Shown piece by piece: positions 13,272-34,392 of a stretch of DNA of 37,396 bases; position 1 is the stretch's first letter; each line of letters starts with the position of its first letter. The translations under genes and the position numbers were made by a program. Under the pieces are notes generated by a model. The model saw nothing but the letters and a program-made list of their open reading frames with translations. It had not been told where the DNA came from and did no database searches. The DNA comes from Myxococcales bacterium (lineage in GTDB: Bacteria > Myxococcota_A > Polyangia > JAAYKL01), in NCBI GenBank assembly GCA_012522445.1, contig JAAYKL010000058.1:1-37396 (forward strand), in the 5' to 3' direction.

Positions 13272-15089
13272 TCAACGCCGTTCTTCGTCGATCGTGCAGC
13301 GCATCACCTCGTCGAAAGACGTTTCGCCCTGGGCGAGTTTTTGCACCGCTGCTTCCCGCAGGGTCACCGTGCCGTCGGCGCGCGCCTGCCGCATAATTTC
13401 GGCCGCATCGGCCTTGCGCGCGATGAGCTCGCGGATGTTGTCGTTGACCTCTAGGAGCTCGAAGACGCCGGTGCGCCCGTACAGACCGGTGTTGCGGCAA
13501 TACACGCAGCCCGCCCCTTCCCACACCGTCAGCGACTCCTGGTCCATGCTCTCCAAGTCGATGCCCAGCAAGGCGAGCTGCTTGGGGTCGAGTTGCACTT
13601 CGACGCGACACCTGGGACAGACGCACCGCACGAGGCGCTGGGCCACCACTCCCACCAGCGTCGAGGAAATCAAAAAGGGGTTGATGCCCAACTCGATGAG
13701 CCGCGTCACGCTGGCAGCGGTGTCGTTGGTGTGCAGCGTCGAGATGACCAAGTGACCGGTCAGGGCCGCCTGGATGGCTTGCTCCGCTGTCTCTGCGTCG
13801 CGGATTTCGCCCACCATGATGATGTCCGGGTCTTGCCGCAGGATGTGGCGCAGCGCCGCGGCAAACGTCACGCCGATGCGCGTCTGGATGGCCACCTGGT
13901 TGAACTCCTCCACCACCATCTCGATGGGGTCCTCGATGCTGACCACGTTGACCTGCGGGCTCGAGAGGTAGCGCAATGTTGAATAGAGCGTGGTGGTTTT
14001 CCCCGAACCCGTGGGGCCCGTCACCAAGATGAGGCCGTTGGGGCGTTCGACGAATTCGAGGTAGCTCGCGTGCGCCGCCTCGGTGAAGCCCAAGTCCGCC
14101 GTGCTCTGGATGAGCACCGTGGGATCGAAAATTCGGATGACCAGCTTCTCGCCAAAGGCCACCGGCAGGGTCGAGACGCGCATCTCCACCTCGACGTCTT
14201 CGCGTTGGGTTTTGAAACGGCCGTCTTGGGGGCGTCGGCGCTCGGCGAGATCGAGGCGCGACATCGTTTTGAGGCGGCTCACCATGGCCGGATGCACCGC
14301 CTTGGGGATTTTGTAGATGTCGTGCAGCACCCCGTCGATGCGCATGCGCACCTGCGAATGCTCGCGCTTGGGCTCGATGTGGATGTCCGAGGCGCGTTGG
14401 TCGAAGGCGTAGTGCAAAATGTAATCGACGGCGTTGACGACGTGCTGGTCGTTGGCCTCGATTTCATCGACCTTGCCCAGGCGCGTGAGCTGCTCAAGGT
14501 TGCCGATGTCAATGGTGGGCGCCATGTCCTTGGCGGCGTGGGCCACCGAGCGCTTAAAGCCGTACACCTCGGTAATAATGCGCTGGATGTCCGAGCGCAG
14601 GCTGAGCACCGGCCGGATCTGCATGCGGGTCAGCACGGCCAGCTCTTCGAAGAGATGCCCCTCCCACGGGTCGGAGACCGCCACCACCAGGGTGTCACCC
14701 TCTTTGCGCAGCGGCAGCACCGACGTGCGCCGGGCAAAGGGCAACGAGACCGTGGAGGTGATGAGGTTGGCATCGAGCTTCAGCGGGTCAATCGTGACGA
14801 ACTCCATGTCCACGTGCTGCGCCAGGGTTTGCACGATGCGCGCCTCATCGACGATGACGCCGTTGGGGTCGCCCCCCTTTCGGAAGCCAAAGGCCGACAT
14901 GATTTGAATGGCGGTGATGTTTTGCCGGGCGACGCGCGACCGGGTCCCGGTGCGTCCGGCGGCCATCGACAGCCGCGCGCGCTGCCCATCCGATCGCACG
15001 ACGGCATCTCGCCCCTGTTCTTGGGTCAAGAGCCCGTGTTGCACGAGAATGGTCGACAGTTCTTCTACGGTGATGCGTTCGGTTCTCAT
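13272..15089 (-). CDS. GspE/PilB-type secretion or pilus assembly ATPase
   Basis: From ATG 15089 the protein has 605 residues; a start at 15122 would add 11. Neither start has a clear ribosome binding site. An N-terminal MshEN-like region (about 80-170: EARIVQTLAQ, SLPFARRTSVLPLRKEGDTLVVAVSDP) precedes the hexameric ATPase core with ASDIHIEP (Asp box), Walker A GPTGSGKT (about 358-365), Walker B DPDIIMVGEIRD and His box TGHLVISTLHTNDT. A tetracysteine zinc motif, CPRC and CVYC, lies near the C-terminus as in GspE and PilB. It would power type II secretion or type IV pilus extension at the inner membrane. No pilin, platform or secretin gene adjoins it, so which machine it drives cannot be told. 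Confidence 0.88.
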   Translation of the reverse strand: MRTERITVEELSTILVQHGLLTQEQGRDAVVRSDGQRARLSMAAGRTGTRSRVARQNITAIQIMSAFGFRKGGDPNGVIVDEARIVQTLAQHVDMEFVTIDPLKLDANLITSTVSLPFARRTSVLPLRKEGDTLVVAVSDPWEGHLFEELAVLTRMQIRPVLSLRSDIQRIITEVYGFKRSVAHAAKDMAPTIDIGNLEQLTRLGKVDEIEANDQHVVNAVDYILHYAFDQRASDIHIEPKREHSQVRMRIDGVLHDIYKIPKAVHPAMVSRLKTMSRLDLAERRRPQDGRFKTQREDVEVEMRVSTLPVAFGEKLVIRIFDPTVLIQSTADLGFTEAAHASYLEFVERPNGLILVTGPTGSGKTTTLYSTLRYLSSPQVNVVSIEDPIEMVVEEFNQVAIQTRIGVTFAAALRHILRQDPDIIMVGEIRDAETAEQAIQAALTGHLVISTLHTNDTAASVTRLIELGINPFLISSTLVGVVAQRLVRCVCPRCRVEVQLDPKQLALLGIDLESMDQESLTVWEGAGCVYCRNTGLYGRTGVFELLEVNDNIRELIARKADAAEIMRQARADGTVTLREAAVQKLAQGETSFDEVMRCTIDEERR

Positions 15090-15249
15090 GGGTCGAAATT
15101 CTAACACAGCGCCCGCATCCATAAAAGAAAGAGCCGCCCTCTCAGGTTGGGCGTCGCAAAATTACCGTCGGGAACGGAGCGAGCGGCGGTGGCGATGCTG
15201 CCTTGGGTGTCGGTCTCGTTGTCGCCTGCGGTGGCGGCCCCAAAACACC

Positions 15250-16881
<1,632 letters not shown>

Positions 16882-16965: not shown

Positions 16966-19272
16966 TCAGCGGCCGCAGTCCCAGCCCCCAAAGAAATCGA
17001 AGCGGTTGTCGTTGGTATCGATGTTGCCCGGCAGCCGCGAAAAACAGGTGAAGATACCGTTTTCCACCGGGAGCCCCTCGTGCCCCCCAGCCAAATCAAA
17101 GGCGCCGCCCACCTGCAGAGAGTCGACAACCTCGCCGTCCTTGCGCAGCCACAGCAAGAAGGGTTCGTGGCCGACAAAGCGGCTCACCCCGGCGGTATCG
17201 ATAACGGTCACATCGTCCTGCCCCGCTTCGGCGATGATGACCCAACCATTGGCGGGGACAACCCCCGAGAGCGACAGGGCCGGCCCCGAGGGAATGCCTG
17301 TATCTGGATGGCCGCGCTGCAGCGACCAGTCGCCGAGGTCCGCGCCCGGCATCATCTCCAAGGCGATGTGCGCTTGTTCCGGATCGCGGCACACCCGCGC
17401 GATCACCGCCTCGCCCCTGAGGTTCAACACAAAATACCCCTCCGTGCCCAGTTGGGGCACGACGCGCAGCCGCACATGCTCGGGAGCCGCGTCGAAGTAA
17501 TGCTCGGGGTCTCCCAAGGCGCCGGGCGCATCGTCCACCTCGAGCGTGCAGTCTTCTTCATCGTCGCCGTCGCCACAAATTTGCAGGCGCACATCCGGCG
17601 TGGACGCGGGCGATGGATCGAGCCGCCGAGCCACCACAACGGCTTTGTAACGGCAGTCCTCCGCTGCGGGCAACACGGTCTCGAAGACATCTTGGGCCGA
17701 GGCGATGCGCCCGACATGAAACAAATGGGGACACGCCCCCTCCTGCCATTGCGAAACGCCCACGGTCCCGAGAGACGTCGATGAGAGGAAGGCATGCCCC
17801 GATGCGGACAGGTGTAACGGCACCGCACCGTCCACGGCCATGAAGAGATGACCTTGGCGCATCTGGGCCAGGGGCGTTAGGTAGTCGGAGGCCAACCACA
17901 TCGCCTGCAGATCCGCGTAATCCAGCGAAGCGCTGCTCCCCAAGAGGTGCACCAGGCGCGTCACCCCTGTGATCGGCGGTTGAAAAGATGCCGTGGCCAA
18001 CACGGGGGTTTCACTCGCAAACAAGAACTCAGCGGACTTGCCGATCTCATAACCCTGTCGCGGCAATTCGTCTTCGTGGGAGAACGGCAAAAACCCCACA
18101 TGGGCACCGCGCGCCGTGCGCACCACCAACGGGATGCCGCGTTCCCAAAACGAACTTTGCGCCAACCAGGGCAACGCAATGCGCGCCTTACCCGACAGGC
18201 CATTGGCCGCCAGACTCTCGAGGCGCACATGCAGATTGGGCTCGGGGATAACCACATCCCCAAGCAGTGCGTGAAAGAGATTTCCCTCGTCGCCGTCGCC
18301 GTGCTGCAACAGCTCTGGCACGGCAAAAGAGGCAGACTGCGCGACACCGCCGGGCACCAACGGCGCCCCATCGATCACCATGGTGAGGCTGTCATCAGGC
18401 ACGCCGTCTTCGGCGATGGCCACAATTTCCACCGGCACCAACAAGGCGCGACCGTCCACGTTGATCTGCAAACCGGTCCAGCCGCCGGGCCCCTCGGGCG
18501 CTAACGAGACCGTCACCCGCAGGCGATCGCCAAACACGCTTTCGGAGAGGACGCGGTCCACGCGCGCACCGATTCCCGCAGCCAGGGAAGCCGAGAGCGG
18601 GGGATGCGACGCCGCGCCAGAAAAGGGAATGAGGACAGTGCCGACGCCCTTGTCTCGCTCCAGGCGTCCCCAAACACCGGGGATGCTCCACGCCGCCGGG
18701 TGCGACACCACGCGCACAGCAGCAGCGGCCTTGGCGTCGTTTCCTTCCGCGTAAATGTGCAGCAACCCCGCGGTGGCCCCGGGAGATGCGCGCAGCTTCA
18801 AATGAACCGCGTCGTCGTCTTCGTGCCAGGCGACATTGGTGATTTGCCAATGGGGGTCCGCCAAAAACCAACGCACCTGGGACGCGAGGTCCATGCCGTG
18901 TTGCCCCGTCACCACCAAGGTATGCTCCAAGGTTTCTAGGTGCAGCACATCCGGCACCACCGATAGGGCAGGCACCTTTCCGGAGGGCAATACGCGGTAC
19001 CACGCCTCGTATGTGTTGCCGCCGCTAAACAATTGAAACGACGCTGGCCCCACCGGCGCATCGGGCATCGCGTGGTGGTTCTCGATCAACAAACCGCGCT
19101 TTTCACGCGCGGCGTCGTCGATCTCGAAGTCGAAGTGACGGTCGAATCCGATGCCTTGGCGCGGGCTGAGCAATGGAGTGGCCACGAGGTTCATGGTGCC
19201 CTTCTCCATGGTCAGCACCGTTGCATTTCCCGCAGCGCCCTGCACGACGTCGGCGATGGCCCGCAAGCGTCG
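16966..19272 (-). CDS. 3' part of a frameshift-split giant lipoprotein, with lamin-tail-like C-terminus
   Basis: From the first codon after a G8 run (19280-19273) to the stop there are 768 residues in frame. The segment begins RRLRAIADVVQGAAG and continues the Ig-like theme of the upstream gene; no convincing start codon or ribosome binding site precedes it, which supports a split single gene. The middle is beta-rich without recognised motifs. The C-terminal 110 or so residues look like a lamin-tail domain (LTD): ANGWVIIAEAGQ, FLLWLRKDGEVVDSLQVGG and the ending SRLPGNIDTNDNRFDFF, a form common at the end of secreted LTD proteins. The open frame extends upstream to 19365, but that part is out of frame with the conserved-looking protein. 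It could be a pseudogene, a phase-variable gene or a sequencing error. Confidence 0.7.
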   Translation of the reverse strand, partial: RRLRAIADVVQGAAGNATVLTMEKGTMNLVATPLLSPRQGIGFDRHFDFEIDDAAREKRGLLIENHHAMPDAPVGPASFQLFSGGNTYEAWYRVLPSGKVPALSVVPDVLHLETLEHTLVVTGQHGMDLASQVRWFLADPHWQITNVAWHEDDDAVHLKLRASPGATAGLLHIYAEGNDAKAAAAVRVVSHPAAWSIPGVWGRLERDKGVGTVLIPFSGAASHPPLSASLAAGIGARVDRVLSESVFGDRLRVTVSLAPEGPGGWTGLQINVDGRALLVPVEIVAIAEDGVPDDSLTMVIDGAPLVPGGVAQSASFAVPELLQHGDGDEGNLFHALLGDVVIPEPNLHVRLESLAANGLSGKARIALPWLAQSSFWERGIPLVVRTARGAHVGFLPFSHEDELPRQGYEIGKSAEFLFASETPVLATASFQPPITGVTRLVHLLGSSASLDYADLQAMWLASDYLTPLAQMRQGHLFMAVDGAVPLHLSASGHAFLSSTSLGTVGVSQWQEGACPHLFHVGRIASAQDVFETVLPAAEDCRYKAVVVARRLDPSPASTPDVRLQICGDGDDEEDCTLEVDDAPGALGDPEHYFDAAPEHVRLRVVPQLGTEGYFVLNLRGEAVIARVCRDPEQAHIALEMMPGADLGDWSLQRGHPDTGIPSGPALSLSGVVPANGWVIIAEAGQDDVTVIDTAGVSRFVGHEPFLLWLRKDGEVVDSLQVGGAFDLAGGHEGLPVENGIFTCFSRLPGNIDTNDNRFDFFGGWDCGR

Positions 19273-20731
19273 CCCCCCCCGTATCGCGGATGCGCAACAG
19301 GGCCTGGGCAATTTTGCCGTCACCGGTGGTGGCCCGGACCACAGCATGGTCAGGCCCGGTTCCACGCTCGGGGGTCAGCCACAAGACCAGCGTGCGCGCC
19401 GACAACCTGCGCACCTCGTGCACGGTTACCGCCGCCCCCGACAGCGACACCGATGCGTCTTCTTGCCAGGTGTCCGAAACGGCTTCAAAGAACACCACCT
19501 GCCGCGCACAGCGCGACCACTCGCAGCTATCGATGACCGGTGGATACAAGCGCACGCCTTCGCTCTCTGCCGCGGGCAACACCGCCAACGCCGCTGCAGC
19601 ACTTTCACCGGAGCGACTCAGGTGCAAGGTGGCTGGCCCCACATCCGCCGCCGCATCCACCGCGACATCTACCGCCAAGCTGTCCTCCGACAGCACGCGC
19701 ACCGCTTCCACGTGCACCCCCGGATTGTCCAGCACTTCCAGCACCAGCGCGTCTTCGTCGACCGCATCGGTGTCGCTGTCTGTGGGCGCAGGAACGCCAT
19801 CCCCGGGCGGCTCCTCACTCGGGTCTGGCAGCGCAAAGGGGCGCATGTTCTCAACGGTGACCAGCAGGGTTGTCTGCCGCGTCGCTCCGTCGTCGGCCGG
19901 TCGCAGGACGCCATCGGGCACCAGTTGCATCTTCGCATAGTGTGGCGGCCGCACCCGAATGACACCCGTGGCCACTTGGTCCCCAGTGATCACGGTGAGG
20001 GGCACCCAGCGCTCACTCGCACCGTGGGGCACCGCGTACTCGGAAACATTGACGCGCACCGACAGGCCGCAGCCATCCTCGTCCACCTGCAGTTGAAACG
20101 GCAGCACCACGCCATTGTCGCCAAAGGCCAAGCGGCTCTGCCCAGCCCGAAAGCGATCGGCGCCGTCGCAATCCAAGCGCACCGACAGGGCGGTGTTTTG
20201 CTCTCCCGCGAACACCGTGTCCGGCGACACCGTCAACGCTGTCCAGTCGGCCCGATGCGCAACGGTAAAGCGCCCCTGCCGCGTCAGGGCACCGCACTGC
20301 AGCGAGGCGCGGTACGCCCCCACATTTGCATCGCCGGAAACGCGCAGCGTCGCGCGCAACCGGGTGGCGTTGAGCACCGATGTGTCCAACACGTGAATGG
20401 CGGTGGGTTCTACCGGCGTCACACCGGGGTCTGGCTCGTCCTCAAGCGATGATGCGGAGGCATCCAGGGGCGAAAACGACAAGGAAAATGCCGGGTTCTC
20501 GGTGGCGGCCTGCGCGGCCTCACAGCGGTAAAGGTCGAGATCGGCCGCTGCGAATTCCACCAACAGCGTCATGCCCTGCGCCGCGCTACTCGGAAAGACC
20601 GACAGGGGATCCACCGGTGTTTGATCCACTGGTAATGCACACCCCGCCACGAGCAACAGCAGCCCTCCCAACGGCGCGAGCCGCAGGAGAAGCAGTCTTG
20701 CGAAGCGCTCTGAACCTGGTATTCTCAGCAT
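19103..20731 (-). CDS. 5' part of the split giant lipoprotein, Ig-like domains
   Basis: From ATG 20731 the product is a lipoprotein: MLRIPGSERFARLLLLRLAP, then LLLLVAGC with lipid Cys at 31. The mature chain is beta-rich with Ig/IPT-like blocks (for example DTVFAGEQNTALSVRLDCDG and VRLYPPVIDS), an Asp/Pro-rich linker (DPSEEPPGDGVPAPTDSDTD) and ends sensibly at LLRIRDTGG. The next 58 or so codons to the stop at 19103 are Arg/His-rich and out of frame, starting right at the G8 run. With one G removed the frame continues into the downstream part and gives about 1254 residues. No Shine-Dalgarno precedes the ATG, and a possible promoter ends only 6 nt before it. Confidence 0.72.
   Translation of the reverse strand: MLRIPGSERFARLLLLRLAPLGGLLLLVAGCALPVDQTPVDPLSVFPSSAAQGMTLLVEFAAADLDLYRCEAAQAATENPAFSLSFSPLDASASSLEDEPDPGVTPVEPTAIHVLDTSVLNATRLRATLRVSGDANVGAYRASLQCGALTRQGRFTVAHRADWTALTVSPDTVFAGEQNTALSVRLDCDGADRFRAGQSRLAFGDNGVVLPFQLQVDEDGCGLSVRVNVSEYAVPHGASERWVPLTVITGDQVATGVIRVRPPHYAKMQLVPDGVLRPADDGATRQTTLLVTVENMRPFALPDPSEEPPGDGVPAPTDSDTDAVDEDALVLEVLDNPGVHVEAVRVLSEDSLAVDVAVDAAADVGPATLHLSRSGESAAAALAVLPAAESEGVRLYPPVIDSCEWSRCARQVVFFEAVSDTWQEDASVSLSGAAVTVHEVRRLSARTLVLWLTPERGTGPDHAVVRATTGDGKIAQALLRIRDTGGATLAGHRRRRAGRCGKCNGADHGEGHHEPRGHSIAQPAPRHRIRPSLRLRDRRRRA
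19273..19280 (-). repeat. G8 homopolymer at the frameshift point
   Basis: Eight consecutive C on the plus strand (G8 in the coding sense) lie exactly where the sensible protein sequence changes frame. Seven or ten G would join the two parts into one frame of about 1254 or 1255 residues. Confidence 0.9.
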
Positions 20732-21183: not shown

Positions 21184-22056
21184 ATGTACAGCATGACCGG
21201 TTTCGGCAGGGGAAAAGCCCCACTCGCCAACGGCGAATTGGTCATCGAACTCAAGACGGTCAACCACCGCTTCCTCGAGATCCGCAGCCGCACCCCCAGC
21301 GATTTGAGCGGCGTCGAACCCATCGTCGAACGCCTGACGCGCGCCCACCTCTCCCGCGGACACTGCACCATTCACGTCGCCTTCGAGCGCCCCGCAAACA
21401 CCGGCGCCACGCTGCACACCGACGTCTTGTGCACCCACATCGTGCAGCTCCAAACCGTGGCCGAAAAGACCGGCGTGCCCATCGCCGCCCTGCTCCCCAT
21501 CGCCGCGCAGGATCCCCACATCTTTCACACCGCTGCCGACATCAACCCCGAAGACCTTGCGCACGCAGCCCAAACCGCCTTTCGCGAGGCCCTCGACAAG
21601 CTCCTGGCCATCCGACGCGCCGATGGCCAATCGATGGTCGCCGAAATCGCCACACGCCTCGACAACATCAATGACATCACCGCACGCATTCAAGCGCACA
21701 ACGCCCGCACCGCCGAAACGACCATGGCACGCACCCAAGCGCGCCTGGCCCACTTGTTGCGCGACACTGCGGTCACCCTCGACAAAAACAGGCTCGAGCT
21801 CGAAATCGCCATTTTGGCCGACAAGACCGACATCGTCGAGGAACTCACCCGGCTCAGCAGCCATGTGGCGCAAATGAAACAACACCTCCACCGGGACGCC
21901 CCGGCGGGTCGCCGCCTCGACTTTATCATTCAAGAGATCAGCCGCGAGGCCAACACCATCGGCGCCAAAACGGCCTCCGCTGACATCGCCCACCTCGTGG
22001 TCGACCTCAAGAGCGACTTGGAGCGCATCCGTGAACTCGTGCAAAACCTGGAGTAA
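21184..22056 (+). CDS. yicC: YicC family endoribonuclease
   Basis: The 290-residue protein has the N-terminal YicC_N signature MYSMTGFGRG and VIELKTVNHRFLEI, and the C-terminal DUF1732 block RRLDFIIQEISREANTIGAK. YicC (RicC) is an endoribonuclease that cuts small RNAs such as RyhB in E. coli. Length is normal. It is followed after 3 nt by gmk, a pairing seen in many bacteria, so the two are most likely co-transcribed. Confidence 0.95.
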   Translation: MYSMTGFGRGKAPLANGELVIELKTVNHRFLEIRSRTPSDLSGVEPIVERLTRAHLSRGHCTIHVAFERPANTGATLHTDVLCTHIVQLQTVAEKTGVPIAALLPIAAQDPHIFHTAADINPEDLAHAAQTAFREALDKLLAIRRADGQSMVAEIATRLDNINDITARIQAHNARTAETTMARTQARLAHLLRDTAVTLDKNRLELEIAILADKTDIVEELTRLSSHVAQMKQHLHRDAPAGRRLDFIIQEISREANTIGAKTASADIAHLVVDLKSDLERIRELVQNLE

Positions 22057-22059
22057 CCC

Positions 22060-22674
22060 ATGACACCGGACACCCATTCCCCCTTGCTCCTCATCGTTTC
22101 CTCGCCCTCTGGCGCCGGAAAAACCACCCTGTGCCACAAGCTCCTGGCCGAGTTTCCCCGCATCCGCTTTTCGATTTCGCACACCACCCGGCACCCGCGC
22201 CCCAACGAAGTGGACGGGCGCGATTACCACTTTGTCTCGCAGGCCGACTTCGACCAAATGGTGGCCGATGAGCGGTTCATCGAATGGGCCCACGTGCACG
22301 GCAACCGCTACGGCACGGCGCACAGCGAAATCCAGCAGGCCCAAAACAACGACATCGATTTGATCTTCGACGTCGACTACCAGGGCGCCCAGCAAATCAA
22401 GACCGCCTACCCAAAGGCGGTGGGCATCTTCGTGCTGCCGCCCAATATCGACGAGCTCAAGCGGCGTCTCTCATCCCGGGGCACTGAAACCCCGCAATCC
22501 CTGGAGACGCGCTTCAAGGCGGCCATCGATGAAATCGCACAACACGCCCTGTTCGATTACCTGCTCGTCAACGACGATCTCGACACCGCCTACGAACACC
22601 TGCGCGCCATCTTCCTCGCCGAGCGCATCCGACACCACCGAACGGCGCACCTGGCCAAATCTCTGCTGCCCTAA
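22060..22674 (+). CDS. gmk: Guanylate kinase
   Basis: This 204-residue enzyme phosphorylates GMP to GDP with ATP. The P-loop SSPSGAGKTT lies at 14-23. The GMP-binding region follows: SISHTTRHPRPNEVDGRDYH and the EWAHVHGNRYGT block. DLIFDVDYQGAQQIK and the LSSRGTET lid are also in place. Length is standard. It starts 3 nt after yicC. The usual neighbour rpoZ is not downstream; the next gene is convergent. Confidence 0.97.
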   Translation: MTPDTHSPLLLIVSSPSGAGKTTLCHKLLAEFPRIRFSISHTTRHPRPNEVDGRDYHFVSQADFDQMVADERFIEWAHVHGNRYGTAHSEIQQAQNNDIDLIFDVDYQGAQQIKTAYPKAVGIFVLPPNIDELKRRLSSRGTETPQSLETRFKAAIDEIAQHALFDYLLVNDDLDTAYEHLRAIFLAERIRHHRTAHLAKSLLP

Positions 22675-27144: not shown

Positions 27145-27702
27145 TCAGTTTTCGGTCTCTTCGGTGGGGACGAGGCTCTCGCGGCACTTCTTGATGATGC
27201 GGGGAACGTCGTCGGCGCTGACCCGGGCGTTGACCTCGTCGTTGATGGTCACCACCGGCGCCAGGCCACAGGTGCCCAGGCATGCGGCTTCCTGCAGCGA
27301 AAACGTACCGTGCTTCGAGGTGTGGCCCATGTCGGTGCCGAGGGCGTCTTTGAACTCCGTGGCGACCTTGTCGGCGCCCTTCACATAGCAGGCGGTGCCC
27401 ATGCAGATGTGAATGCGAAACTTGCCCGGCGGGTGCAGTTGAAAGAAGTGATAGAAGGTGGCCACCCCGGCGACGGTCGCTGTGGGGATTTGCATCAACT
27501 GCGCCACCGCATCAATTTTTTCTTTGCCCAGGTATCCCAGTTCGCCCTGCAGTTTGTGCAGCACCGCGATCAACATGCTCGAGGGCACCTCTGACTTCAG
27601 GCAGTCTTCAATGAAGGCCACCACCGACGGCGGCAACTCTTCGCGGGACGCCTTTTGAATTTCGTTCCAGTTGTCTGTATTTTGTGTTGTAGGCATCGTC
27701 AT
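27145..27702 (-). CDS. hydC: Hydrogenase subunit HydC, NuoE-like [2Fe-2S] protein
   Basis: The 185-residue protein has the NuoE fold: an N-terminal helical part (PPSVVAFIEDCL, GELGYLGKEKIDAVA, VAGVATFYHFF) and a thioredoxin-like [2Fe-2S] domain with Cys pairs CMGTAC and CLGTC, the four usual ligands. In trimeric NAD(P)-dependent or bifurcating [FeFe] hydrogenases it relays electrons beside HydB. The ATG overlaps the hydA stop codon (TGATGA), so the two are translationally coupled. It is the last gene of the hydB-hydA-hydC unit. There is no clear terminator, though a T7 run lies about 30 nt downstream. Confidence 0.93.
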   Translation of the reverse strand: MTMPTTQNTDNWNEIQKASREELPPSVVAFIEDCLKSEVPSSMLIAVLHKLQGELGYLGKEKIDAVAQLMQIPTATVAGVATFYHFFQLHPPGKFRIHICMGTACYVKGADKVATEFKDALGTDMGHTSKHGTFSLQEAACLGTCGLAPVVTINDEVNARVSADDVPRIIKKCRESLVPTEETEN

Positions 27703-29492
27703 CAGATTCCCCTTGGCAAGCGCGCACTGTAATTCGTGTGCAGCAATTTTTGCGCCTTCTCACTGCCCGGCGCACCGAGATAGTCCATGTAAAGTTTGCT
27801 GATGGCGGGGTTTTCGTGGGAGCGCCGCAGCGTCTTCCCGGCGTCGATCATGTACAGCGCCTTGGCCCGCAACCAGAGCAGCTCTGGGTCACGCGGCTTC
27901 ATGCCCTTGGGCGGATATGGCTGGCCGCCGCCGCCGATGCAACCGCCCGGACAGGCCATAAATTCAATCAGGTGATACTCCTTGCCCGCCGCCACTTCGG
28001 CGAGCACCTTGGCCGCGTTGGACAAGCCGTTTACGACTGCCACGACAATTTTTTTGCCGTTGACCTCGACCACGGATTCGCGGATGCCGTCCACGGAGCG
28101 CACCTCGTGAAAATCAATTTGGTTGATGCGGCCGTCGGAGAGTTTTTCAACCGCCGTGCGCAGCGTGGCTTCCATGACGCCGCCGGTGGTGCCGAAGATA
28201 TCCCCCGCCCCCGACGATGTGCCCAGCGGGTTGTCAAACGTGTCGCGCGGGTAGTTTTCGAGGTCGATGCTTCCGGTGGTCCAGTAATCGACACCGTACG
28301 ATTTGATCATCCAAATCAACTCGCGCGTGGTCAGCACGGCATCGGTGTAGGGCGTGCCGTCCGGCAGGGTGTGCTCGGAGCGCTTGGCTTCGTACTTTTT
28401 GGCCACGCAGGGCATGATGGCCACGACGTAAACATCGTGCGGATCGATGCCCTTTTGTTCGGCGTAATAGGTTTTGAGCAGCGCCGACGTCATGGTCATG
28501 GGCGACTTGCACGACGAGGCGTGCGGGATCATCGACGGGTGAAAGCGCTCCAAATAGTTGATCCAACCCGGCGAGCAAGAGGTGAACATGGGCAGCGGGC
28601 CCTTGCCTTCCAGGCGTTGCAGAAACTCGGTGGATTCCTCGACGATGGTCAGGTCGGCGCCGAAGTTGGTGTCGAAGACCGCGTCGAAACCCAGGCGGCG
28701 CAGGGCAGCGACCATGCGACCGGTGCTCGGGGTACCCGGGGCCATGCCAAAACCCTCTCCGATGGTGGCGCGGATGGCCGGCGCGGTTTGCACCACCACG
28801 TGCTTCTTGGGGTCGGAGAGAGCCGCCCAAACCGCTTCGGTGTCGTCTTTTTCGAGCAGGGCCGCCGTGGGGCACACCGTGACGCATTGACCGCATTGGA
28901 TGCAGGCCGAGTCGTCCATGTCGGCTTCGTGGGCCGGGGCCACCACCGTGGTAAAACCGCGGCCGTGCTGGCTCAGGTTGTTGATGGCCTGGGTCTCCGA
29001 ACAGACCCGGATGCAGCGACCGCACAAAATGCACTTGTTGGGATTGCGCACCACCGCGCAGCTCGAGTGATCTTCGTGCAGGTTTTTGCGCGTCCCTTCG
29101 AAGAGGCGCTCGCGGATGCCCATCTCGTTGGCCAGGTTTTGCAGCTCGCAGTTGCCGCTGCGCTCGCAGGTTTGGCAGTCCTTGTCGTGGTTGTCGAGGA
29201 TCAGCTCGACGATGTCGCGACGCGCTTGGCGAATTTGCAGCGAGTTGGTCTCCACCTCCATGCCCTCCCACACCTTCACCGAGCAGGCCGCCATGTAGTG
29301 TCCGCGGTCCTTGACGTCGACCACGCAAACGCGGCAGGCGCCGGGAATGCTCAAGTCGGGGTGGTGGCAAAGCGTGGGGATGCGCACGCCGACATGCGAC
29401 GCCGCCTCCACAATGGTCGAGCCCTCTTCGACTTCGATTTTCAATCCATCAATGGTGATGGGGATCATTTTCTTTTTGTTTTCGGTAGTCAT
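27702..29492 (-). CDS. hydA: [FeFe] hydrogenase catalytic subunit HydA (HndD-like)
   Basis: From ATG 29492 (GGAG 5 nt upstream; GTG 29498 is also in frame) the protein has 596 residues. It begins with a [2Fe-2S] domain (C42, C53, C56, C70), then the His/Cys cluster (H102, C106, C109, C115) and two [4Fe-4S] clusters (C154-C164, C197-C207). The H-cluster domain follows: TSCSPGW (304-310), MPCVAKKYE with C362, and FMACPGGCIGGGGQP with C514 and C518. The first motif has Ser in place of the second Cys of TSCCPxW; together with SSCKSP shortly after, this resembles HndD-type enzymes as I recall them. It reduces protons or oxidises H2. It lacks the extra C-terminal [2Fe-2S] domain of Thermotoga HydA. 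It lies 12 nt after hydB. The maturases HydEFG are not in the window. Confidence 0.95.
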   Translation of the reverse strand: MTTENKKKMIPITIDGLKIEVEEGSTIVEAASHVGVRIPTLCHHPDLSIPGACRVCVVDVKDRGHYMAACSVKVWEGMEVETNSLQIRQARRDIVELILDNHDKDCQTCERSGNCELQNLANEMGIRERLFEGTRKNLHEDHSSCAVVRNPNKCILCGRCIRVCSETQAINNLSQHGRGFTTVVAPAHEADMDDSACIQCGQCVTVCPTAALLEKDDTEAVWAALSDPKKHVVVQTAPAIRATIGEGFGMAPGTPSTGRMVAALRRLGFDAVFDTNFGADLTIVEESTEFLQRLEGKGPLPMFTSCSPGWINYLERFHPSMIPHASSCKSPMTMTSALLKTYYAEQKGIDPHDVYVVAIMPCVAKKYEAKRSEHTLPDGTPYTDAVLTTRELIWMIKSYGVDYWTTGSIDLENYPRDTFDNPLGTSSGAGDIFGTTGGVMEATLRTAVEKLSDGRINQIDFHEVRSVDGIRESVVEVNGKKIVVAVVNGLSNAAKVLAEVAAGKEYHLIEFMACPGGCIGGGGQPYPPKGMKPRDPELLWLRAKALYMIDAGKTLRRSHENPAISKLYMDYLGAPGSEKAQKLLHTNYSARLPRGI

Positions 29493-29504
29493 GTTCACTC
29501 CACT

Positions 29505-31685
29505 TTAATCCCGTGTAATCGCAGAGAATTTGCAAACTTCAAAACAACGGCCGCAGCGGATGCAGGCTTCTTGATCGATGACATGCGGTTTTTTGCGTTC
29601 GCCGGTGATGCAGCCCACCGGGCACTCGCGCGCGCACAGACGGCAGCCGATGCACGCGTCTTCGAGGATGGTGTAGCGCAACAGCGCGGTGCACTTGCGC
29701 GACGGACAGCGCTTGTCGATGACGTGCGCTTCGTACTCCTCGCGGAAGTAGCGCAGCGTAGAGAGCACGGGGTTGGACGCCGCGCGGCCCAGTCCGCACA
29801 GGGAGGTGCGCTGCATGAGCAAGGCCAGCCGCTCGAGCTTGTCCAAGTCCTCGGGGACGCCCGTGCCGCCGGTGATGCGCTCGAGGATTTCGAGCATGCG
29901 CACCGTGCCTTCGCGACAGCTCGTGCACTTGCCGCAGGATTCGTTCTTCGAGAAAGTTAAGAAGAACTTGGCGATGTCCACCATGCAGTCGTCTTCGTCG
30001 AGGACAATCATTCCGCCGGAGCCCATCATGGAGCCGAGCTCCATCAGCGCTTCGAAGTCCACGGGCAGGTCCATGAAGTCCATGCGGATGCAGCCCCCCG
30101 CCGGACCGCCGGTTTGGATGGCCTTGATTTTTTTGCCCTCCGGGGAGCCGCCGCCGATGTCGAAGACGATGCGCTGCAAGGAGGTGCCCATGGGCACTTC
30201 GACGAGACCGGTGTGCTTGACCTTGCCAGCCAGGGCAAACACCTTGGTGCCGCCGCTCTTGTCGGTGCCGATTTGCGAAAACCACTGCGGTCCATAGGTG
30301 AAGATCACCGGGATGTTCACGTAGGACTCGACGTTGTTAATGAGCGTGGGCTTGCCGAAGAGGCCTTTTTGCGCCGGAAAGGGCGGTCGGATGCGCGGTT
30401 GTCCGCGGCGCCCCTCAATGGAGGCGATCAACGCGGTCTCTTCGCCGCACACGAAGGCGCCAGCCCCCAGGCGGATTTCGAGGTCAAAGGAAAAGCCGGT
30501 GCCCAGGATGTTGTCGCCCAGCAGATTGAGGGCGCGGGCTTGGGCCAGGGCGTTTTCCACGCGGCTCACCGCCAGCGGATATTCGGCGCGGATGTACAAG
30601 AAACCCTTTTGGGCCCCCACGGTGAAACCGGCGATGGTCATGCCTTCGACCACGGCAAAGGGGTCGCCCTCCAAAATGCTACGGTCCATGAAGGCGCCGG
30701 GATCGCCCTCGTCGGCGTTGCAAATGACGTAGCGCGTATCCGACGGCGTGTTGAGGGTTTGCTCCCACTTGAGGCCCGTGGGGTAACCGCCGCCACCGCG
30801 CCCGCGCAGCTTGGACTCGTGGAGCTGCGAAATCACCCAGCGCTGATCGTGTTTGTCGAGCACCTTGGCCAAGGCCAGGTAGCCGTCTTGCAACAAGTAG
30901 GAGTCGATGTCCTCGGGGTCGATGACGCCGCTGTTGCGCAGGGCCACGCGGGTTTGCATGTTGAAAAAAGGCAGGTTGCCGTAGCGGGAGAAGAAGACGT
31001 CGCTCACCGGTTTTTCGTGCAGCATCAAGCGCTCCACCGGTTCGCCGCCCAGCTCGTGCTCGGCGATAATGGCGTCCATGTCCTCGTAGGAGTGAATGGC
31101 GTAGATGATGCGATCCGGTCGCAGGGCGATGTGCGCGATGGCGTCGCCCGCCGTGTCGCTGTCGCACAGGTGGAGGCAGTCGGTTTCCCGCACTGCCACG
31201 CGCGTCATGTCGACACCCGCCGCCGCCATTTTGTCGGTGAAGCCCTTCATTAAATCGGCGTTGTCAAAGCTCTCGCACTGCCGCGTGGCACAAAACCAAT
31301 ACTCGCGGCGAAACACCACCTCGTCGGTTCTGTCGAGCATCATGTCGACGACGGGTTCTCCGCCGACGACGTGGCGCGTAAAAATATCGTGCACGCCCCG
31401 CCACGTTACTTGCTCGTACTTCACCGGCATCTGCCCCGGGGCAAACACACCGACGATGGGCTCGCGGCTGCAGCGCCCCGAACATCCCGTGCGGCGAATG
31501 ATGATGTCATCGCGACCGCTCGCTTTGATGTGGCGGACAAACTCCGCGTACACCTTGGGCGCACCCGCCGCATTTTCGCATGTGGCCGAGCCGATCTCGA
31601 TCACGATGCTCTCTGGCGGCTCTTTGGCTTCCATGCGCCGTGCCGCTGCGTCCAGAATGGATTTGTGCAACTCTGTTACAGGCAT
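29505..31685 (-). CDS. hydB: Hydrogenase subunit HydB, NuoF-like FMN/NAD(P) subunit with two thioredoxin-like domains
   Basis: From ATG 31685 (AAGGAGA, 6 nt) the protein has 726 residues, about 100 more than Thermotoga HydB. Residues 20-120 form a first thioredoxin-like ferredoxin domain with only three of four Cys (C36, C68, C72). Residues 125-225 form a second with all four (C132, C137, C170, C174). The NuoF core follows: FMN loop RGRGGGGYPTG (294-304), CNADEGDPGAFMDR, GAGAFVCGEETALI, and a [4Fe-4S] site C584, C587, C590, C630. The C-terminus has two ferredoxin [4Fe-4S] clusters (C678-C688, C708-C718), as in HydB rather than complex I. It binds NAD(P)H and FMN and is the likely bifurcation site. 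It is the first gene of the unit. Confidence 0.94.
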   Translation of the reverse strand: MPVTELHKSILDAAARRMEAKEPPESIVIEIGSATCENAAGAPKVYAEFVRHIKASGRDDIIIRRTGCSGRCSREPIVGVFAPGQMPVKYEQVTWRGVHDIFTRHVVGGEPVVDMMLDRTDEVVFRREYWFCATRQCESFDNADLMKGFTDKMAAAGVDMTRVAVRETDCLHLCDSDTAGDAIAHIALRPDRIIYAIHSYEDMDAIIAEHELGGEPVERLMLHEKPVSDVFFSRYGNLPFFNMQTRVALRNSGVIDPEDIDSYLLQDGYLALAKVLDKHDQRWVISQLHESKLRGRGGGGYPTGLKWEQTLNTPSDTRYVICNADEGDPGAFMDRSILEGDPFAVVEGMTIAGFTVGAQKGFLYIRAEYPLAVSRVENALAQARALNLLGDNILGTGFSFDLEIRLGAGAFVCGEETALIASIEGRRGQPRIRPPFPAQKGLFGKPTLINNVESYVNIPVIFTYGPQWFSQIGTDKSGGTKVFALAGKVKHTGLVEVPMGTSLQRIVFDIGGGSPEGKKIKAIQTGGPAGGCIRMDFMDLPVDFEALMELGSMMGSGGMIVLDEDDCMVDIAKFFLTFSKNESCGKCTSCREGTVRMLEILERITGGTGVPEDLDKLERLALLMQRTSLCGLGRAASNPVLSTLRYFREEYEAHVIDKRCPSRKCTALLRYTILEDACIGCRLCARECPVGCITGERKKPHVIDQEACIRCGRCFEVCKFSAITRD

Positions 31686-31754
31686 AAATTTCTCCTTGTG
31701 AAACAAACCGCAAAATGAAGAGCGCGAACGCTGTACTGTGCTGTGTCACGGCGG

Positions 31755-32038: not shown

Positions 32039-34204
32039 TCAAAAGCGAAAATAGATGTTGTCGATTTGCAAGGTGGCGTGTTCGGTTTCGGCGATCATCT
32101 CGCCGTCATTCGACCGCTGGGGATACAGCTCGAAGACCACGGCGGACAGGCGTGACAGCACCTCGGCGCGGGCCGCGGCGTCGGATCCCGTCCAGCCTTG
32201 ATCGCCGGACCATGCGTCCTTGGCCCAGTCGGGGTAGCCAATGCTGCCCAGCGTGATTTTGAACGTGGTGGGCGCCGACGTAACGATGATGTCGCGCGAA
32301 AAGACCTCCCAGATGCCGCCGTACAACGCGCTGTACACCGGGCTGCGAAAGTCGATGCGCAGATTGCGCTCTCGATCGGCGCGCAGGGTCACCGACATCT
32401 CCACCATTTTGGAAACATCGATGGTGCCGCCGCCATCGACCTCCACCGCCACGCCGGCCACTTCATTCCAGGCGCCGGGGATGCGCGTGTAGTCGACCTC
32501 CATGCGCAGGTCCGCGAGGCCCGACAGGGGGTCTGCCGTGCTCCAGGTGGTGACGGTGGTGGTGCCGGAGGAGGCGTAGTCGTAAGTCCAGATGGGCGCG
32601 GTGTCGGCAGCCCCGTCGATGAACTCGTAGTTGTGGATGATGTCGCGCCTCAGGCCCGTTTCGTCCGTGGGGGCATTGAGCGCGTCGGCGTCGGGCTCAT
32701 CCCAATGCGACTGTTCGATGTACCCCTCCAGCAGGTGCTGTTCGAAATCGAAGATGGCGTCTTGGAGAATGCCGCGCAGCTCGTCGACCCGGCGCTCCCA
32801 TTCCTGCGTGTTGACGTAGGGGTCGTCGGCGATGGCCGGGGCCACCAGTTCGGCCCAGCGCGTCACCTTGGCGTTGAGCGCATCGTAAACAAAGATGGTG
32901 TCGAGCAGCTCTTGCCCCGCGGCGGCAAAGTCGTCCCAGTGGTTGTGCGCCAGCAGATGGATGAGGTTGTCGCAGCCCGGCGGCGTGACCCGCGTGGGAT
33001 CGTTGGCGGTCCACACCGACATGGGCGTGCAGTCCGCGGGTTTCACGTTCCAGTTGGGGATGGGCGCCGCGGTGACCCACTGCTGCGGATTCATGAACGG
33101 GTCAAAGGGCGGGAAGGTGTTGTCGAGGTCCCAGGGAACGAGGTGGAACATGTCGATGGGGCCGTCGTCGTGGTACCAGTAAAAGTTGTGCGGGGTCCGG
33201 GGGCTGTAAAACGCCGTGATACCGTCCCAGTTTTGCAAGGCGCGGTCCACGGCCATGTAGCGCACCAGGGCGCCGATGTCGGTCCAGTCCGCCATGTCGG
33301 CCGAAAAGGTTGCGGCGGTGGCCTGGGCCACTTGGTTGCCAAAGGCGATGAAGTCGGACACATCGCCCACCTCCTCGTTGGTCTTCAGGGCGCTGCGCAC
33401 GTGGTCGGGGCTTAGATCTGCCACGGGCCAGATTTCTTTGTAGAGGTTGCCGTCGCCCCCTTTGGCGTAGTGCGCCTTGGTGTAGCGGCCGTCGATTTGC
33501 TCCACGGCGAGCACCAGCCCCTCGTAGCGGCCGTTGATGAAGAGCTTGGCGTGGGCGGTCAGGGGCGCGTCGATGCCGAATTCGTTGAAGATGCCGTAGG
33601 AGAGGCTGTCGCGCATTTTGCTCGCGTCGGCGCTCAGGGCGTGCAGGTTGAGGTTTTTGAGACCGTGGAAGCGCTGCTGATCGTCGTAGCGTTTGAACGA
33701 AATGCGCAAAGAGAGTTTGGCGCACTCGCCAGCGTGACTGCGGACGCCGCCAAAATCGTTCCAGCAGTGCGACAGCGTCCAGGCGCCTTTGTAGCGCAGG
33801 CCAATGCTCTCGAAGAGCGACTCGCCCGCCTTGGCCACCACCCGCAGGGACGCCGGGCGGTACACCTTGTCGACACCGTGGGCCTGCAGGTCGCTGTATA
33901 CGTCTTCATCAATGGTGATGTGGTATTCCTTGAGTTCGTCTTGGTTGAACACCTGCTCGGCCAGCGTGCGCTTGGAGAAGGTGCGTGTGTCGTTGGGGTC
34001 GCCGTACCCCGTGTCCAGGGGAAGGGTCGAGGAGTCTTGGGGGGCGGTGTCGCTGTCCGCGACGTCGGTGGCGTTGTCGGTGGCAAGGCCAGAGGTTTTG
34101 GCGTTGCACGAAGCCAGCAACAGCAAGACCGCAACCGAGATGCCGAAAAACAATGCAATGCGCGCCACAATGATGAACAAGCGGTGAATCGAATGCGATG
34201 ACAT
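32039..34204 (-). CDS. CotH-family lipoprotein kinase with C-terminal beta-sandwich
   Basis: From ATG 34204 (AAAGGAG, 5 nt) the protein has 721 residues. The lipoprotein signal ends LLLLASC with lipid Cys at 33. After an Asp/Thr-rich linker comes a CotH domain (about 80-430): YHITIDEDVYSDL, GLRYKGAWTL, LNLHALSADASKMRDSLSY, LVLAVEQIDGRY, and the kinase-like active block DRALQNWDGIT followed by HLVPWDLDNTF. CotH is an atypical protein kinase of spore coats, but lipid-anchored CotH proteins outside Firmicutes probably act on cell-surface proteins. The last 180 or so residues resemble a carbohydrate-binding beta-sandwich (YDYASSGTTTVTTWS onward). It diverges from glyA. Upstream in-frame codons to 34291 overlap the ribosome binding site and are not used. 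Confidence 0.85.
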   Translation of the reverse strand: MSSHSIHRLFIIVARIALFFGISVAVLLLLASCNAKTSGLATDNATDVADSDTAPQDSSTLPLDTGYGDPNDTRTFSKRTLAEQVFNQDELKEYHITIDEDVYSDLQAHGVDKVYRPASLRVVAKAGESLFESIGLRYKGAWTLSHCWNDFGGVRSHAGECAKLSLRISFKRYDDQQRFHGLKNLNLHALSADASKMRDSLSYGIFNEFGIDAPLTAHAKLFINGRYEGLVLAVEQIDGRYTKAHYAKGGDGNLYKEIWPVADLSPDHVRSALKTNEEVGDVSDFIAFGNQVAQATAATFSADMADWTDIGALVRYMAVDRALQNWDGITAFYSPRTPHNFYWYHDDGPIDMFHLVPWDLDNTFPPFDPFMNPQQWVTAAPIPNWNVKPADCTPMSVWTANDPTRVTPPGCDNLIHLLAHNHWDDFAAAGQELLDTIFVYDALNAKVTRWAELVAPAIADDPYVNTQEWERRVDELRGILQDAIFDFEQHLLEGYIEQSHWDEPDADALNAPTDETGLRRDIIHNYEFIDGAADTAPIWTYDYASSGTTTVTTWSTADPLSGLADLRMEVDYTRIPGAWNEVAGVAVEVDGGGTIDVSKMVEMSVTLRADRERNLRIDFRSPVYSALYGGIWEVFSRDIIVTSAPTTFKITLGSIGYPDWAKDAWSGDQGWTGSDAAARAEVLSRLSAVVFELYPQRSNDGEMIAETEHATLQIDNIYFRF

Positions 34205-34392
34205 GAGGCTCCTTTGGGCACGTGAACAGTGGGAGGACAAAGGCTCGCTCCAGGTGAATCCCGAAAAAAATAACATAGAAAAATTAAGCATTACGGTCCT
34301 TTTTGCTCTCAGACTGGATCATTTTCCGTCGCGCAGGATTCATTTTCCGTATTTGCAAGAGCGGTCTTGTGGGTGAGCAAGGCGGCGGAGCC

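Follow-up and report, generated by a model that had tools for sequence, protein, structure and literature searches.

A conserved lipoprotein gene split at a G8 run in a myxococcal draft genome: a probable recent slippage allele

The split gene

We begin by considering how a gene that reads as one lipoprotein comes to lie in two reading frames. In the window, by which we mean the whole stretch of 37,396 nucleotides that was analysed, the minus strand from 20731 to 16966 holds one lipoprotein gene in two frames (486 and 768 codons), with the change of frame at eight consecutive G. An earlier note, made from the letters of the DNA, left the choice between a phase-variable surface protein, programmed slippage, a recent pseudogene and a homopolymer sequencing error. 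The features on which the argument draws are the following.

16966..20731, minus strand: the whole disrupted lipoprotein gene (both halves match one ORF in relatives; yicC-gmk synteny)
20639..20731, minus strand: signal peptide with the lipobox LVAGC and a predicted acylated Cys31 (read from the translation)
19273..20731, minus strand: 5' frame, N-terminal half, 486 codons (translation, homology, codon usage)
19273..19280, minus strand: G8 homopolymer, the frame-change site (sequence, codon usage, frame-break scan)
16966..19272, minus strand: 3' frame, C-terminal half, 768 codons (ORF, homology)
15250..16881, minus strand: downstream FG-GAP lipoprotein gene on the same strand (Pfam FG-GAP; it also adjoins the homologue in relative G003)
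21184..22056, plus strand: yicC, the divergent neighbour and synteny anchor (Pfam YicC, synteny)
22060..22674, plus strand: gmk, guanylate kinase, the second synteny anchor (Pfam Guanylate_kin, synteny)

The 5' frame starts with the ATG at 20731 (MLRIPGSE...LLLLVAGC) and continues to ...LLRIRDTGG at the G8, which is found at 19280-19273 of the minus strand as assembled and is followed by CGACGC. Past the run this frame adds 56 out-of-frame codons and stops at 19105-19103; the 3' frame has no stop between 19365 and the TGA at 16968-16966. The codon-usage profile puts the frame change at the G8. A seven-state Viterbi/HMM frame-break scan switches at 19259, with the G8 inside the scored junction region, and the G8 is the sole G/C run of at least seven in the window. 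Further decay, in the form of extra stops or indels, is absent from the 3.7 kb of the split gene. The description in the earlier note, a gene of 1254 residues divided exactly at the G8 with both halves otherwise free of stops, is thus borne out by sequence, codon usage and scan, the length being 486 + 768 when the frames are trimmed at the run.

Since both halves keep coding codon usage and have no further stop, the frame change is recent, if it is real. The same perfection of the two halves is what one expects if the gene is intact in living cells and the break is an artefact of sequencing or assembly at the G run, or the consensus of a mixed population. This is the main rival to a real frame change, and we judge it a serious possibility though not a likely one. 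It draws strength from the high Illumina error at polyG/C runs of at least eight, a known weak spot of short reads (PMC4235727), and from the expectation that lone homology-confirmed frame breaks are mostly sequencing errors (PMC3711429).

Homologues in the family

The next point is whether the gene exists in one piece elsewhere. The comparison set consists of 14 genomes of the family, the window's own included; no genome of the same genus was found. The genome itself appears to be a metagenome bin, and two of the relatives are MAGs. The C-terminal half matches 13 of the 14 genomes (own included) and the N-terminal half does likewise, with no match to either half in G009. In nine relatives (G002, G003, G004, G006, G008, G010, G011, G012 and G013) a single ORF of 1183-1341 codons covers both halves and the junction, and the two halves align to the same ORF in consecutive order with zero gap between them. 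The homologue of G001 is divided between two contigs and that of G007 is incomplete, near a contig end. The earlier note took the halves for one gene split at a homopolymer, to be checked by aligning homologues across the junction and to be given up if these proved to be two separate proteins. The nine relatives are continuous and gapless there, each with a single ORF, which also speaks against two separate genes joined by translational coupling. A translation restart for the C-terminal half is set aside as well, because no signal peptide of its own is seen in the 3' half and the relatives have one ORF.

In those relatives whose contig extends far enough, the homologue is found beside the divergent yicC and gmk, a synteny that supports orthology. 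What appears in the draft genome as a split gene is then a member of a conserved, so far unnamed lipoprotein family located beside yicC-gmk. The homologue of G005, which belongs to another genus, is itself cut by an in-frame TAG (L079:5526-5528), which precedes the position of the window's break by about 24 codons, so that the two genes have independent lesions in the same interdomain segment.

The relatives also bear on the tract. Ten relatives have at most 2-5 consecutive G near the junction and no G tract there, which makes programmed slippage or an ancestral contingency locus unlikely. One of the earlier choices was programmed slippage at the run; it, or frameshifting, would make the full-length protein from the split gene, and poly-G transcriptional slippage has been discussed for bacteria in the literature. 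The slippery tract is absent at the junction in all relatives examined, however, and a -1 ribosomal shift would meet a stop within 30 codons, only a +1-type frame joining the halves. This excludes the -1 shift but would still allow one of +1 type, or slippage by RNA polymerase. We therefore consider this explanation highly improbable.

Protein architecture and the predicted product

Sequence profiles tell little about the protein. At E<=0.01 neither half has a Pfam domain, and at E<=0.1 the 13 homologues show nothing noteworthy; NCBIfam gives no credible match for the lipoprotein, and a PDB sequence profile search no match. The lamin-tail-like C-terminus that had been suggested earlier finds no lamin-tail profile match in Pfam, either in the window or in the 13 homologues. 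Modelled with AlphaFold2 from 4 sequences, the intact homologue L084 comes out as nearly all beta-strand, at low confidence (mean pLDDT 57). Foldseek searches with this model return nothing more specific than tandem chains of Ig/cadherin type, at TM-scores no higher than 0.24, which we read, tentatively, as a beta-sandwich tandem and no more. The Ig-like domains of the earlier note are accordingly reduced to a beta-sandwich architecture, for which this low-confidence homologue model is the sole backing. In the model the junction corresponds to residue 437, which follows strand 424-433, the final one of the N-terminal tandem, and is near the start of a low-confidence stretch (435-507).

We favour, with reasonable though far from complete confidence, a slippage allele that is recent and specific to the lineage, in a conserved gene for a surface lipoprotein; it possibly arose within a mismatch-repair-defective population. 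Of the earlier choices this corresponds to the recent pseudogene, understood as a frame-break allele, which is the best supported because the relatives are intact across the break. Replication slippage at the G run would have recently shifted the frame of a gene that encodes a lipid-anchored protein of the cell surface, about 1250 residues long, either in the lineage or in the population that the assembly represents. The product as assembled would be a truncated lipoprotein made of the signal peptide, the N-terminal beta-sandwich domains and 56 foreign residues, and the C-terminal 768 residues would be neither made nor exported. With the break at a predicted domain boundary, such a truncated product may still be exported.

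Long runs and frame breaks in the genome

We turn to the rest of the genome (3.12 Mb, 143 contigs, 88% complete), where the main rival, an error at the run, can be weighed. The genome has 23 G/C runs of at least eight, and only the one at 19280-19273 splits a gene. The other 22 comprise 15 that are inside predicted genes with no frame break, several of them near gene ends, and 7 that are intergenic. Tracts in L058, L064, L068 and L069 looked suspicious at first, but their genes are intact. The longest G run, a G14 (G000:C63:391-404), is located where a predicted gene ends, close to the end of a contig; the second longest, a G11 (G000:C94:18460-18470), is intergenic.

The frame-break scan was applied to 784 kb and then to a further 260 kb, 1.04 Mb in all, and recovered 69 of 120 simulated one-base deletions (a sensitivity of about 58%). 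In the 784 kb the split lipoprotein gene is the sole strong mid-gene frame break, and in the further 260 kb there is one weaker break. Inside the predicted genes of this 1.04 Mb sample, no strong break is found at 40 A/T runs of at least eight or at 57 G/C runs of exactly seven. Among the other candidates from the scan, L103, L104, L105, L109-L112, L117, L119-L121 and L169 were explained by overlapping genes, by gene boundaries or by failure of the filter; L107 is a proline-rich region in an intact gene. The weaker break is in a lipoprotein gene that looks frame-broken (L167:15609-16926, minus strand, on G000:C26); next to it is a tandem paralogue with a single ORF that matches both pieces in order.

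The rarity of frame breaks in 1.04 Mb indicates that the assembly is not generally indel-prone, unlike uncorrected long-read assemblies, and a general homopolymer artefact is unlikely. A homopolymer sequencing error, offered earlier as one choice, is in its systematic form likewise disfavoured by the 15 gene-internal G/C runs of at least eight with no break, as it is by the unbroken long A/T runs. An isolated error at this one run keeps the standing that we gave it above.

The same counts bear on a contingency locus, in which a selected, reversible variation of tract length would switch the surface protein between full-length and truncated forms. Runs of 6-8 G are mutable and runs of more than seven hypermutable, so that a G8, here inside a surface lipoprotein gene, is one of the shorter hypermutable tracts (PMC4235727). 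Pilus genes of B. breve do switch at G tracts that divide a signal-peptide ORF from the rest (PMC9187656), and a broken mutL, discussed below, would raise the switching rate. These points are opposed by the lack of the tract in every relative examined, by its mid-gene position, and by the rarity of long G/C runs in the genome: 23 of at least eight are observed versus about 159 expected from the dinucleotide content at the window's composition. As no other gene is broken at a long G/C run, there is no set of contingency loci, and we regard a contingency locus as improbable.

Mismatch repair genes

Mismatch repair influences how often slippage occurs, and the same genome was therefore examined for mutS and mutL. 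In E. coli an A8 tract frameshifts, on average, about 119-fold more often once mutS is lost (PMC3306285). The mutS gene (mutS1) is intact. The mutL gene is in two frames in the assembly (G000:C55, about 13510-15353, L100), with the frame change at a CGCGCGC repeat near G000:C55:13866 (repeat region about 13862-13875), inside the ATPase domain. Its N-terminal 120 codons carry the ATPase motifs and the remainder the DNA_mis_repair and MutL_C domains. The family homologues are intact across the break point, and no second mutL was found in the genome. From about 2 breaks per Mb and the 58% sensitivity, we estimate the chance of a mutL-sized gene being broken at about 0.6%. As a sign of a mismatch-repair defect the break is suggestive but not proof, and the same assembly doubts apply to it.

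A genuine mutL break would leave mismatch repair defective and slippage at such tracts more frequent, and a change such as that at the G8 would be easy to acquire and to revert. An excess of indels at repeats, the mark of a mutator, is not seen, the scan having found few breaks in 1.04 Mb. This counts against a longstanding mutator, from which more broken tracts would be expected; the population may still be a recent mutator. A fuller scenario is a natural mutator in which mutL was inactivated by slippage at the CG repeat and the lipoprotein G8 was an early consequence; an uncultured anaerobe would then toggle its mutation rate as well as a surface protein by slippage at repeats. We hold this to be unlikely. 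A real mutL break would mean that a population of an uncultured bacterium is naturally deficient in mismatch repair. For the present the split gene serves mainly as a caution and a lead: a gene split in a draft genome, together with a frame-broken mutL.

Comparison with known systems

Returning to the recent slippage allele that we prefer, we compare it with four published cases. The closest in kind are the "singleton fs-genes" of GeneTack (PMC3711429), which like the window gene have a break in a single lineage, intact homologues and no conserved recoding site. The window gene differs from them in that its G run is longer than in most such cases, and in that mutL is also broken in its genome. 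In the sortase-pilus switch of B. breve (PMC9187656) a G run also parts the ORF with the export signal from the remainder of the surface protein, and the length of the tract decides whether the full-length product is made. Those tracts are conserved in the genus (G11/G12) and their length heterogeneity has been measured, whereas the window's tract is not shared by the relatives and is represented by a single assembled length.

The polyG contingency loci of Campylobacter and Neisseria (PMC4235727) share with the present case a G run within a gene that specifies a surface component. Their genomes hold many such tracts, however, while here one of 23 breaks a gene and the orthologues have no tract. 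Finally, in the switching of Salmonella mutL by tandem-repeat slippage (PMC2955026), mutL is likewise altered at a short tandem repeat; the change there is of 6 bp, and here the repeat is a dinucleotide, at which reversion and a mutator phenotype would be predictions.

Other features of the window

Rfam and tRNA scans of the window found nothing. At 27145-31706 the window carries an [FeFe]-hydrogenase-like set of genes (2Fe-2S thioredoxin-like, iron-only hydrogenase large subunit and Nuo51-like), which suggests an anaerobe, and at 32039-34291 it encodes a CotH-kinase protein.
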